From positions 1-64,000 of the forward strand of contig NZ_PPTT01000024.1 in the NCBI RefSeq assembly GCF_003339815.1: a stretch of DNA of 64,000 nucleotides, in the 5' to 3' direction. Every line of letters begins with the position of its first letter. The first letter of the stretch is position 1. Below, piece by piece: positions 36,827 through 51,366 of the stretch. A program made the translations under genes and the position numbers. Origin of the DNA: Eggerthella sinensis (GTDB lineage Bacteria > Actinomycetota > Coriobacteriia > Coriobacteriales > Eggerthellaceae). The notes under the pieces are model-generated. The model saw only the letters and a list, made by a program, of their open reading frames with translations, had not been told where the DNA came from and ran no database searches.

Positions 36827-37714
36827 CTATTCTTCAGCGTAATCCTTTATGCAGGTCGCGACATATTTCGAGAGATTTGGCGGGACGGCATTGCCGATTG
36901 CAAGTTCCACATCAGTCTTCGCTCCGGGAAACTCGAACGAGTCGGGGAACGTCTGCAAGTAGCCACGCTCACGCGTCGTGAGCGCCCTCACGCCATCGGA
37001 AATATCTGCCTTGTCAGCGTGGTGGTGTTTATAGCTCTCTGGAATCGGCCGATTGATGCCGCGAATCGTTGCCGATGGTTCATCGATAGAGAATACAGCG
37101 CGACGGTTATAGCTGCGGGGATGCATGTAATAATACTGCGTCCCAAGTTTATCGCCAAGATAGTCGCGAACGGTCATCTGCTTTTTCGAGAAGTTCGCAA
37201 CGATCGCATCGTCGAAGAAGCCATCCTTCTCTCCGAGTTTGCCGATCAGGAAAAAACGCCTGCGCTTCTGCGGCACACCACAACGGCTTGCATCAAGCAC
37301 ATGCGTGGTGATTCCATATCCGGCGTCACGAAGCCTCTGCTCCATCTTCGGCAACGTAGGGAAGCGCTCGATGTTGTAGACGTTCTCGAAAACGACCCAG
37401 GTCGGCTTGATAGCGATGACGAGCTCGGCGTACTTCACGGTAAGGTTCGCACGCTCACCGATCTGCCTCTTCCCAGCAATCGAGTAGTCTTGGCAAGGAG
37501 GCCCGCCCACAATGACATCGGGCTTCAGCTTGCGAACCGTCGGAGTGATGTCATCGATACTGAGGTCACGCTTGTATATGGGGTGGTCGAAGTTAGCCTC
37601 GTAAATCCTGATGGCAGAGTCCCAGTTGTCGAAGGCGGCAACGACGTCGAAGCCCGCCTGCTCGAACCCGTACGACATGCCACCGCATCCTGCAAAAAGG
37701 TCAACTACGCGCAT
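36827..37714 (-). CDS. DNA (cytosine-5) methyltransferase, first of a pair
   Basis: This is 295 residues. Motif I is VDLFAGCGGMSYGFEQAG, motif IV GGPPCQDYS with the catalytic Cys, motif VI FENV, motif VIII QKRRRFFLIG and motif X IGNAVPP. It is short for the class, with a small target-recognition region. The ATG at 37714 has AGGAGGGAG upstream and overlaps the end of the other methyltransferase gene by 14 bp. It protects one strand of the recognition site. Confidence 0.92.
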   Translation of the reverse strand: MRVVDLFAGCGGMSYGFEQAGFDVVAAFDNWDSAIRIYEANFDHPIYKRDLSIDDITPTVRKLKPDVIVGGPPCQDYSIAGKRQIGERANLTVKYAELVIAIKPTWVVFENVYNIERFPTLPKMEQRLRDAGYGITTHVLDASRCGVPQKRRRFFLIGKLGEKDGFFDDAIVANFSKKQMTVRDYLGDKLGTQYYYMHPRSYNRRAVFSIDEPSATIRGINRPIPESYKHHHADKADISDGVRALTTRERGYLQTFPDSFEFPGAKTDVELAIGNAVPPNLSKYVATCIKDYAEE

Positions 37715-38648
37715 CGCCGGCTCCCTCCTGCTTGCTGACAACGTAGCGCATAAGAGCGTTGCCAACGTATGAGGCAAGATTCACTGGAACGGCGTTGCCG
37801 ATCATAGTGTTCATGTCTGACTTGCCACCGAAGAACTCGAAATCCTCGGGAAAGGTTTGTATGAGGCTGCGCTCCTTAGGAGTAAGCCCCCTGACCTCGC
37901 TCACAGGTACGGGATCGCTGGGATGACCCTTGTATCCCTTCGGGATAGGTCGGTCCACGGCGCGAATGGTCATAGATGGCTCGTCTATGCTGAAGACCCC
38001 TCTACGCGTATAGTTCGTCGGTACGCGGAAGTAGTAGTCGATTCCGAGAGAATCCCCGAGGTGGTCGCGGATGGTCATGGGTTTATCGGCGAACCCTCGC
38101 TCAAGTTCTTCGTCGAGAAAACCATCATCGCCGCCAAGCTCGCCGACTACGAACATACGCTTGCGCGTCTGCGGGACACCGCAGTATGCGGCGTTGAGCA
38201 TCTTCTGCGTAAGCCCATAGCCTGCCTCTTTGAAGGCAACGATCACCTTACGAAACGATTCAGTGTTTCGAATCGTGGCAACGTTCTCCATGACGAAGTA
38301 GTGCGGCTTCACCGCTGCCACTACACGTGCGTAGCAGACGGAGAGAATCGCCCTCCCACGGGTCTCATCCTGGTAGCCGGCAGTTGAAAAGTCCTGGCAG
38401 GGCGGGCCTCCAATGACGATGTCCGGGTAGTAAGCTCTTATCTTTTCGACAGACTCATCGACCTTCGAAAGGTCCTGCTCCACAACAGGATGCGAAAAGT
38501 TCGCTTTATAGACATCAATCGCTGGCCTCCAGAACTCGAACGCTGCCGAAATATCATAGCCAGCGTTTTCGAAGCCTTTGGACATGCCTCCGCATCCCGC
38601 GAACAAGTCCACGGCTCGCAGCTTGACAGTCTTTCCAGCAATCGGCAT
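37701..38648 (-). CDS. DNA (cytosine-5) methyltransferase, second of the pair
   Basis: This is 315 residues and a clear relative of the next gene. Motif I is VDLFAGCGGMSKGFENAG, motif IV GGPPCQDFSTAG, then MENV, QTRKRMFVVG, a segment with LIQTFPEDFEF and MIGNAVPV. Two C5 methyltransferases are required when the target is asymmetric, as for LlaJI (GACGC). It is the first gene of the four-gene operon. TATACT at 38727-38722 is a possible -10. Confidence 0.92.
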   Translation of the reverse strand: MPIAGKTVKLRAVDLFAGCGGMSKGFENAGYDISAAFEFWRPAIDVYKANFSHPVVEQDLSKVDESVEKIRAYYPDIVIGGPPCQDFSTAGYQDETRGRAILSVCYARVVAAVKPHYFVMENVATIRNTESFRKVIVAFKEAGYGLTQKMLNAAYCGVPQTRKRMFVVGELGGDDGFLDEELERGFADKPMTIRDHLGDSLGIDYYFRVPTNYTRRGVFSIDEPSMTIRAVDRPIPKGYKGHPSDPVPVSEVRGLTPKERSLIQTFPEDFEFFGGKSDMNTMIGNAVPVNLASYVGNALMRYVVSKQEGAGDARS

Positions 38649-39263: not shown

Positions 39264-39274
39264 CCCCCCCCCCC
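39264..39274 (-). repeat. 11-base poly-G tract at the ribosome site of the small gene
   Basis: Eleven C on the plus strand, G on the coding strand, placed where a Shine-Dalgarno sequence should be. Slippage would alter its distance to the ATG. Confidence 0.9.
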
Positions 39275-47212: not shown

Positions 47213-48598
47213 CTACGCCGGCGCGAGATCACCATCCTCTTCGAGGACGGGAACATCGCTCGACGTCTCACCCTCGGCTGCAACTGCGTCGTTCGTGCCG
47301 GCATCCTTCGGCAGCACGAGGTTCGCCACGACGGCTACCAGGAACACGACGGCCACGCAGTTCTGCGCGAACACGCTTTGCACGAGCGCCGGGAAGCTGG
47401 CGAACAGGGCCGACACCTGCGTGAAGCCGATGCCCACGGCCAGCGACAGCGCGGCAATCAAAATGTTGCGCTGCGTGAAACCCGCCCGCGCGATCATCTG
47501 GAACCCGCTCACGATGATGTTGCCGAACATCATAATGGTGCAGCCGCCCAGCACCGCCTCGGGCAGCGACGCGAAGATAACGCTGATGATCGGCAGGAAC
47601 GCCGCCAGCACCATGATCACGGCGCCCGTGGCGATAGCCTTGCGGTTCACCACCTTCGTCATGGCCACGAGACCCACGTTCTGCGAGAAGGACGTGATGG
47701 GCAGGCAGCCGAAGCACGCGGACAGCGAGCTGACGAAGCCGTCGCACGCGATGGAGCCCGTGAGTTCCTTCTCCTTCACCTCGCGATTGAGGCCCACCAT
47801 CGTCAAAGCCGACGTGTCGCCGATGGTCTCGGTAGCCGACACCAGGAAGATGAGCGTCACCGACACGATGGCGCCCAGGTCGAAATCGGGGGCGAACGGC
47901 ATGAGCTGCGGCAGCGCGAACAGCTGCAGGTTCGCGAACCCGCTGAAGTCCACCGCGCCCACCACCACGGCGCACGCGTACCCGATGACCAGGCCGAACA
48001 GGACCGACAGCTGCTTCGTCTTCCCCTTCGCCAGCACCTGGAATACCAGGCACGACACCAGCGAGATGGTACCCAGCAGCAGGTTCTGCGGCGAGCCGAA
48101 GTCGGCCGCCCCGCTGCCGCCGCCGAATGAAGACGCACCCACGCCCAGCAGCGAGAAGCCGATGGCCGTCACCACCACCGCGGCCACGATGGGCGAGATG
48201 ATGCGGCGCCAATACTTCGCGAACAGGCCCAACACGCCCTCGATGAGACCTCCCACGATGATGGCGCCAATGGCCACGTTGTAGCCGTACGTTGCCACGA
48301 TACCCGTGAGCACGGTGACGAACGTGAAGCTGATGCCCATGACGATGGGCAGCCCCGAGCCGATACGCCACAGGGGAAACAGCTGGATGAGCGTGCCGAT
48401 GCCCGCGATGAGCATGGCGCTTTGCACGAGCATGCCAATTTGGTCGTCGGCGAGCCCCGCCGCCGCGCCTACGATGAGGATGGGCGCGAGGTTGGCCACG
48501 AACATGGCCAGGATGTGCTGGATGCCATACGGGATGGCGCGCACGACGGGGATGTCGCCGTCGAGCTTGAACAGGTTCTCGTGTGCGAATGGCTTCAT
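47213..48598 (-). CDS. pbuX: NCS2-family xanthine/uracil permease
   Basis: This is 461 residues and about fourteen helices. The family signature [13 protein letters not shown] and the [20 protein letters not shown] segment of nucleobase:cation symporters are present. It takes up xanthine or a related purine with protons. Its start overlaps the end of xpt by 4 bp (ATGA), which fixes the role in purine salvage. Confidence 0.87.
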
Positions 48599-49170
48599 CG
48601 GAACGCGATCTCCCCCGTCTCGGGGTTCATGCCGTCCACGATGGCCAGCGACTCGAGGCGGTACCCACGGCGGCGCAGGTCATCGCCGCCCGGCTGAAAG
48701 CCCTTCTCGATGGCGATGCCGATGCCCTCCACCGTGGCGCCGGCCTCGTCAACGAGCTCGATGAGCCCGTTAAGCGCGCAGCCGTTCGCCAGGAAATCGT
48801 CGATGATCAGCACGTGGTCGTCGGCACCGAGGAATTTCTTGGACACGATGACGTCGTACACGCGGCTGTGCGTGAACGATTCGATGCGCGTCGTGTACAT
48901 CTCGCCGTCGAGATTGATGCTTTGCGCCTTCTTCGCGAACACCACCGGCACGCCGAAGTGCCGCGCCACCACGCATGCGATGCCAATGCCGGACGCCTCG
49001 ATGGTGAGAATCTTCGTGATAGGCGCGTCGGCGAACAGCCGCTTGAACTCCTCGCCCATCGCGTCGAACAGGTCGATGTCCAGCTGGTGATTCAGAAAGC
49101 TGTCCACCTTGAGCACGCCCTCCGACTTCACCACCCCGTCGTGCTTGATGCGCTCCTCTAAAAGCTCCAT
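48595..49170 (-). CDS. xpt: xanthine phosphoribosyltransferase
   Basis: This is 191 residues. It transfers phosphoribose from PRPP to xanthine, giving XMP. The PRPP-binding motif [14 protein letters not shown] and the start [12 protein letters not shown] are typical of Xpt. It is the first gene of the xpt-pbuX operon. The leader is only about 80 nt to the next gene boundary, and no purine riboswitch core is visible in it. Confidence 0.92.
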
Positions 49171-49694: not shown

Positions 49695-49733
49695 ATCCAC
49701 ATATAATGCCCCCCCCCCGATCATTTTGTCAAG
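49695..49733 (-). promoter_or_regulatory. promoter with a 10-base poly-G spacer
   Basis: On the minus strand a perfect -35 TTGACA is followed by AAATGATC, ten G, then CATTATATG. With CATTAT as -10 the spacing is 18. With TATATG it is 21, and it would be ideal if the tract lost three or four G. The G tract is at 49709-49718. Confidence 0.6.
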
Positions 49734-49789: not shown

Positions 49790-49828
49790 CGAGGAGGCCC
49801 GCGCTTGCAGTTTGCGCGGGCCTCCTCG
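49790..49828 (-). terminator. stem-loop terminator of the permease gene
   Basis: CGAGGAGGCCCGCGC and its exact complement form a 15-bp stem with a 9-nt loop, 30 nt after the permease stop. The tail TTGTTT is weakly T-rich. Confidence 0.75.
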
Positions 49829-49857: not shown

Positions 49858-51366
49858 CTACAGCACCACTTGCCCCGTGAGCAGCAGCACGAGCGAGATC
49901 ACGGCGGCAATCAGGATGATGGCCACCACCACCTTGTCCACCGTGCTCTTCAGGTACGGCTCGTTGCGCTCCTTCTTTCCCCAGATGTACATCACAATGC
50001 CGGGCGCGTACAGCAGCGACATGAGCGTGAGGCCCACCGCTCCCGACGCCCACGCCAGGAAGAAGCTGTACACCACGCCGAAGATGCCGAAGATGCGCCA
50101 CAGGATGAGCGCGCCGCCCACCTTGCCCTTGAACGCCTCAGGCTCGGTGAACGTGATTTTGGCGAAGTACGCCGCCGACAGCAGGTACGGCAGCAGAATC
50201 ATGCCGGCCGACAGCGCGTAGAAGAACTGGTACGTGCTGTCCGAGAACAGCATGGCGATGAGGAACACTTCCACGACGATGTTCGTCACCACGAGCGTGA
50301 CGATGGGAGCGCCCTTCTTGTTCGTTTTCGCGAACGCCTTGATAAACACGCCCTGCTCGGCGGCCTCGTAGGGCGACTCGCTCGACAGCACCGTGTAGCC
50401 CAGCATGGCGCCCACGAGCGACAGCACCACGCCGCCGTTGATGAGGATGGCGCCCCACTGCCCCACCGCGTGCTCCAGCACGCCGGCAAGCGCCGGGTTC
50501 GGCAGCTCGGCCAGCTCGGACAGCGGCATAACGCCCATGCTGAGCATGCTCACCATAAGATAGATGGACAGCACGCACACGAACGCGATGATGGTGGCCT
50601 TGCCCACGTCGCGCTCTTTCTTGGCACGACCCGAAATAGCCACCGCGCCCTCGATGCCGACGAACACCCAGATGGTGATCATCATGGTGCTGCTCACCTG
50701 GTCGAAGAACGGCAGGCCGGGATCGGCGCCGGTGGTCATGTTCGCCATGAAGATGCCCAGGTCGAACTTCTGGAAGAAGATGATGGCCGTGATGCCCACG
50801 AAGATGGGCACGAACTTCGAGATGGTGATGACGGCGTTGACGCCCGTCGCCTCCTTGATGCCGCGCGACACGAGGAACACGTAGAACCAGATGAGACAGC
50901 TTGCCGCGATGACCGAGGGAAGGTTCGTCCCCTCGCCGAAGATGGGGAAGAAGTACGCGAGCGCGCCGCACAGCAGCGCCGAGAAGCTCACCGTGCACAG
51001 CAGCGCGCTGATCCAATAGCCCCAGGCGCTGTTGAAGCCCAGGAAGTCGCCGAAACCGGCGCTTGCATAGCTGTAGATGCCGCCCTTCAATTCGGGCTTG
51101 ATGCGCGAGAGCGCGAAGAACGTCATGACCAGGCACAGAACGCCGATGCCCGAGATACTCCATGCGGTAAGGATAGCTGCGCCACTGGCGCCACCTGCTG
51201 CCTGGTCGCCTGCCAGGGTGAACACGCCACCGCCAACGATGAGCGTGATAACCGTGGTGACCAGGCGGAAGATACCTAAACCGCCTTGGGGTCGGGGAAT
51301 GTCCGGAGACGCGGACGACGCAGCCGAAACTGCCGTGGTCGGGTGGTGCGATGCGGATTCGCTCAT
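49858..51366 (-). CDS. APC-family amino acid antiporter, possibly arginine:ornithine type
   Basis: This is 502 residues, about thirteen helices. The first helix has LIVGGGVFTLAGDQAAGGASG, close to the basic amino acid/polyamine antiporter group that includes ArcD-like exchangers. Arginine use through the deiminase pathway is known in Eggerthella, which fits, but no arc genes are nearby. The ATG at 51366 is taken because the protein then starts like its family, although its ribosome site (GAGGAAA) is distant. Confidence 0.7.
   Translation of the reverse strand: MSESASHHPTTAVSAASSASPDIPRPQGGLGIFRLVTTVITLIVGGGVFTLAGDQAAGGASGAAILTAWSISGIGVLCLVMTFFALSRIKPELKGGIYSYASAGFGDFLGFNSAWGYWISALLCTVSFSALLCGALAYFFPIFGEGTNLPSVIAASCLIWFYVFLVSRGIKEATGVNAVITISKFVPIFVGITAIIFFQKFDLGIFMANMTTGADPGLPFFDQVSSTMMITIWVFVGIEGAVAISGRAKKERDVGKATIIAFVCVLSIYLMVSMLSMGVMPLSELAELPNPALAGVLEHAVGQWGAILINGGVVLSLVGAMLGYTVLSSESPYEAAEQGVFIKAFAKTNKKGAPIVTLVVTNIVVEVFLIAMLFSDSTYQFFYALSAGMILLPYLLSAAYFAKITFTEPEAFKGKVGGALILWRIFGIFGVVYSFFLAWASGAVGLTLMSLLYAPGIVMYIWGKKERNEPYLKSTVDKVVVAIILIAAVISLVLLLTGQVVL

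Follow-up and report, generated by a model that had tools for sequence, protein, structure and literature searches.

Among bacterial promoters containing a homopolymer, the porA promoter of Neisseria meningitidis comes closest to the locus presented here: its poly-G tract lies between the -35 and -10 hexamers, and the dependence of the promoter on tract length has been measured (PMC3899988). Tract length also alters the transcript level from the poly-C promoter of Neisseria opc (PMC6389960) and from the Bordetella fim2, fim3, and fimX promoters, which carry a C-stretch (PMC1891110). Replication slippage in a G-tract underlies the sortase-pilus switch of Bifidobacterium breve, whose authors mention further G-tracts in promoter spacers, without detail (PMC9187656), and Eggerthella lenta switches its capsule by large inversions (PMC13174815).

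The locus considered here lies within a stretch of 64 kb from Eggerthella sinensis, which we call the window. An earlier note on this DNA had described a perfect TTGACA, a weak -10 and a spacer containing ten G, and all of these are found on the minus strand between positions 49732 and 49703 (table 1), forming the arrangement TTGACA-18-CATTAT with G10 inside, that is, a mononucleotide tract between recognisable hexamers at workable spacing. This is the arrangement of porA, for which a change of one G is expected to alter transcription; unlike porA, which encodes an outer-membrane protein in a Gram-negative organism, the predicted promoter precedes a regulator gene in a member of the Coriobacteriia and has a perfect -35. 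It shares with opc and the fim genes the presence of a homopolymer in the promoter, and differs from the latter, in which the C-stretch sets the distance between an activator site and the -10, in having a consensus -35; a promoter of fim type can be set aside, since this perfect -35 lies upstream of the tract and is conserved. With B. breve it has in common a slippage-type G-tract, the gut habitat and the phylum, whereas the tracts described in that organism lie in coding sequence and act by frame-shift. A frame-shift switch of that kind does not apply to our locus, in which the tract ends 52 nt before a conserved start codon, and a ribosome-binding stretch followed by ATG lies in between. The E. 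lenta capsule, probably from the same genus, resembles the locus in the reversible phase variation proposed for it, but its mechanism is DNA inversion rather than slippage, and homopolymers are not mentioned in that report (PMC13174815).

Table 1. Position of the promoter elements and surrounding genes in the window
Feature	Position	Strand	Remarks
pbuX-like xanthine/NCS2 permease	47213..48598	minus	neighbour
xpt, xanthine phosphoribosyltransferase, next gene downstream	48595..49170	minus	neighbour; operon with regulator a candidate only
Winged-helix regulator, 134 aa	49252..49656	minus	fold model, weak profiles; orthologues with 64-65% identity
-10 hexamer CATTAT, abutting the tract directly	49703..49708	minus	sister species keep CATTATATG
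G10 tract, slippage-prone part of the spacer	49709..49718	minus	G10 and G11 in sister species
Whole spacer, AAATGATC + G10, 18 nt	49709..49726	minus	
-35 hexamer TTGACA	49727..49732	minus	perfect consensus (6/6); identical in both sister species
GC-rich hairpin, likely antiporter terminator, between antiporter gene and promoter	49791..49827	minus	read by eye
Arginine/ornithine-type antiporter gene, upstream of promoter	3' end at 49858		

The promoter scores 10/12 in a sigma70-type scan of the window. Its -10 hexamer matches TATAAT at four of six positions, including A2 and T6, and its placement straight after the G-tract is the register seen at the family-wide sites discussed below. From this hexamer to the ATG of the regulator (49656) there are 46 nt, so that the leader, in which purine-rich ribosome-binding stretches are present, would measure about 40 nt. 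The hairpin upstream is absent from a simple terminator scan because its tail is insufficiently T-rich. Apart from the tract, the window contains a single C or G run of seven or more, the C11 at 39264-39274. This run (G11 on the minus strand) separates two short ORFs and lies upstream of a pair of adjoining cytosine-methyltransferase-like genes (36827-38648); at a promoter-like distance before it stands TTGAAA, a convincing -10 is missing after it and an ATG follows 6 nt after the run.

The earlier note had also placed a winged-helix gene behind the promoter, and the predicted fold agrees with this. A single-sequence AlphaFold2 model (pLDDT 70) has the order H-E-H-H-E-E-H and resembles the folds of PadR and MarR with probability 1.00 (best E 1.2e-3), suggesting the winged-helix fold of a PadR/MarR-like regulator. 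Matches of the regulator to the IclR, PadR, and HTH_34 profiles of Pfam all fall below the curated cut-off, so that no named family can be given for it; IclR, PadR, and MarR-type helix-turn-helix profiles weakly match the regulator or its relatives, which have a DGGQ...AY wing in common. Nine of the 11 loci carrying such relatives (L034-L042, L045, and L046) lack any G or C run of seven or more, and the runs in the other two, C9 in L034 and C8 in L042, lie several hundred bases from the match; hence, the tract does not characterise the regulator family.

Orthologues of the regulator occur in the sister species G002 and G003, two of the three further genomes in the genus; both retain the gene order and the promoter, which reads TTGACAAAGCGTCGC-G10-CATTATATG in G002 and TTGACAAAGCGTCC-G11-CATTATATG in G003, the spacer being 19 nt in each. 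Upstream of the -35 the sister sequences align poorly with the window, and xpt differs from its sister copies at 20-25% of third codon positions. The -35, the uninterrupted tract and CATTATATG are therefore conserved where the bases around them have diverged, and this arrangement is not due to chance. In the third genome, G001, the antiporter gene and xpt adjoin, while regulator and tract are both missing, and so the two form one cassette that is present or absent as a unit. Since xpt is kept there without the regulator, it probably has a promoter of its own, and the switching of an operon including xpt is disfavoured. A search of the whole window against Rfam returned one tRNA only, hence no purine riboswitch before xpt, and a viral sequence collection contained no match to the locus or to the strict promoter pattern.

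The sister sequences also bear on the opposite strand. A plus-strand promoter can be read across the same bases, with a perfect TATAAT (49702-49707) and GCGACA 18 nt upstream, placing the C-tract at or near the transcript start; it likewise obtains 10/12 matches in the sigma70-type scan, and the conservation of CATTATATG in the sisters preserves its TATAAT there. Yet neither sister has a recognisable plus-strand -35, whereas the minus-strand TTGACA is maintained in both, and what follows on the plus strand is no gene but the 3' end of the opposing antiporter gene. Disfavoured above all by the missing -35, this reading appears very improbable to us.

Could the run and the hexamers have come together by chance, the run being devoid of function? 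Long G runs are indeed common in these organisms: the 4.0-Mb genome of E. sinensis has 58 tracts of nine or more G, and each of the three further genomes in the genus has 50-69. Taken alone, the G10 run is unremarkable; what stands out is that two promoter hexamers flank it and that three species retain this placement. We scored the 176 tracts of at least nine G with usable flanks in the four genomes (few from G003) for their match to TTGACA and TATAAT on either side of the run, allowing a spacer of 15-21 nt. A joint score of 10 is reached solely by the tract in the window and its two orthologues; the mean in composition-preserving shuffles of the flanks is 0.01 (100 shuffles of all 176 tracts), and the poly-C reading of the same tracts never attains it. 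Scores of 8 or more are found for 11 tracts, where the poly-C control has one and the shuffles give 1.0, which implies that promoter spacers make up a minority of the tracts and that the majority are of another kind. The notion that every G run is a switch is thereby ruled out, promoter-like flanks being absent at most tracts of the genus. That general abundance of runs without promoter-like flanks is what speaks for mere coincidence at our locus; against it stand the conservation in three species, the shuffles and the family-wide excess of the same architecture, so that coincidence can be given hardly any weight. On several contigs of E. sinensis (C3, C11, C16, C25, C35, C51, C52, and C55) tracts of nine or more G lie less than 60 nt from the contig end; the assembly thus seems to break at poly-G, and tract lengths there are unreliable.

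The excess is apparent at each taxonomic level. Within the genus there are 12 occurrences of G8 with NATNNT after it and one of the reversed pattern; among 138 genomes of the family, G9TATNNT is found 45 times, distributed over 28 genomes, and the reversed pattern twice, and among 396 genomes of the class the counts are 68 and three. An independent count, in which overlapping starts were counted, gives 108 against 28 for TTGA 8-12 nt ahead of G9. TTG at a spacer of 15-21 nt is present at 20 of 28 distinct sites, where 3.0 are expected and 5000 shuffles give at most 10; the eight sites without it indicate that several of the family sites may be due to chance. Behind the sites, assigned at some of them by position only, lie genes for a beta-helix-like protein, an InlB-type repeat protein, a LytR_C lipoprotein, and GGDEF or GGDEF/EAL enzymes, as well as others whose N termini, read by eye, are signal-peptide-like or lipoprotein-like. 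Many of the sites thus appear to precede secreted proteins or c-di-GMP enzymes, and the promoter of the regulator would be part of this family-wide set. The earlier note had stated that such promoters have hardly been described in Coriobacteriia. This stands for the literature, our search of which retrieved no description of homopolymer promoters in Eggerthella or Coriobacteriia, but not for the sequences, in which the class does not seem rare; the homopolymer spacer is, therefore, a known device that is apparently undescribed in this class of bacteria.

Some individual sites deserve mention. A conserved poly-G promoter of a GGDEF enzyme is found in three genomes of the genus (L101, L102, and L103, around position 1500); only 6 nt separate the -10 from the ATG, and the mRNA is therefore probably leaderless. 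Contig C70 of genome G082 has six G10 sites within 28 kb (3309-30958; L119 and L142) of the form TTGAAAA...-G10-TATCAT (one TATTCT); the two that we read each precede a copy of a secreted, beta-helix-like protein, and the six sites may mark a tandem set of surface proteins subject to phase variation. At around position 1498 of L106 (G001 C1:823161), G11 followed by TATGAT lies apparently inside coding sequence, with a similar case of G10 in L132, and this tract is a candidate frame-shift switch.

Beyond the class, a scan of named genomes for TTGACA-N7-9-G9-NATNNT yields at least 120 stretches, mostly from gut Clostridia, Bacilli, and other host-associated bacteria, and hence poly-G spacer promoters are widespread outside Coriobacteriia. 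Among the matches listed, the first -10 position is T at 110 of 122 sites, and the exact TATAAT is present at 53 of 122. Also among the matches listed, perfect TTGACA, often with perfect TATAAT, is seen in many gut Clostridia, Bacilli, and spirochaetes (L143-L262), and spacers of 16 nt (38) and 18 nt (63) exceed those of 17 nt (20), within a pattern that restricts the range and with redundancy kept.

Differences in tract length are found at comparable promoters. The GGDEF promoter, TTGCTC-N9-G-TATACT, which in G001 lies at C1:442437-442451, carries ten G there and 11 in G002, the tract being the one gap, alongside 34 substitutions, over 3 kb; the promoter of a secreted protein has G10 in G104 and G11 in G105, the sole indel, with two substitutions, in 3 kb. 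Altogether, three of five orthologous tracts differ in length between G001 and G002 in regions that are 97-99% identical. At the locus of the regulator the lengths are G10, G10, and G11, from one genome per species. All these comparisons are subject to the error-prone nature of homopolymer lengths in assemblies (PMC9187656). MutS and NucS have no match in the four genomes of the genus, while control genomes do match. Without MutS, slipped loops escape repair by the classical route.

These data have to be weighed against a further possibility, namely that the promoter is real and that its G-rich spacer has been retained because it serves a fixed purpose, such as helix geometry, promoter strength, or a protein-binding site, with no switching in practice. 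The conserved architecture fits a fixed function too, and both sisters arrive at a total of 19 nt despite G10 in one and G11 in the other, since a neighbouring C/G change compensates. However, unrelated promoters of the family have uninterrupted tracts of G9-G12 with different adjacent bases, an interrupted G-rich spacer would do the fixed job without instability, and both the length changes at comparable promoters and the lack of a MutS match are at odds with it. We regard this possibility as unlikely, albeit the one to be taken most seriously among the alternatives.

The best explanation is probably that of a sigma70-type promoter with a slippage-prone G10 spacer, phase-variable in the manner of porA. 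The earlier reading of the locus as such a promoter finds good support for the architecture, from the sister conservation, the family-wide excess and the absence of MutS and NucS, and in part for the mechanism. Most known switches drive surface structures, and the regulator as a target counts against a switch, as does a -10 matching four of six positions. Replication slippage would add or remove single Gs and thereby shift the spacer in steps of 1 nt, from the 18 nt of the window to the 19 nt of both sisters, or to 17 nt with G9. If transcription starts from the TTGACA/CATTAT promoter, tract length varies within a population and expression follows that length, a lineage would make more or less of the regulator; the latter may in turn shift other genes, a switched regulon being a guess. 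The outcome would be a heritable, reversible bet-hedging switch. Sigma70 promoters are strongest with a spacer of 17 nt, intermediate with 18 and weak with 19, and by this rule the window would represent a middle state and each sister a low state; a poly-G spacer may have its optimum elsewhere than at 17 nt, and we have consequently left ON and OFF unassigned.

In broader terms, we put forward tentatively, as a possibility short of even chances, that the Eggerthellaceae, lacking recognisable mismatch repair, might randomise surface proteins, c-di-GMP enzymes and, in the case presented here, a regulator by means of dispersed poly-G spacer promoters, one slip re-setting a whole expression programme. 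Because the promoter drives a regulator, the effects of a single site could extend to many genes. Eggerthella and its relatives transform drugs, bile acids, and plant compounds, with variation from strain to strain. If the proposal is true, a class of promoters altered by the slip of one base would escape comparisons of gene content and be easily mis-assembled; it would also be directly testable by counting Gs, and the sites listed allow an immediate test in cultured strains.
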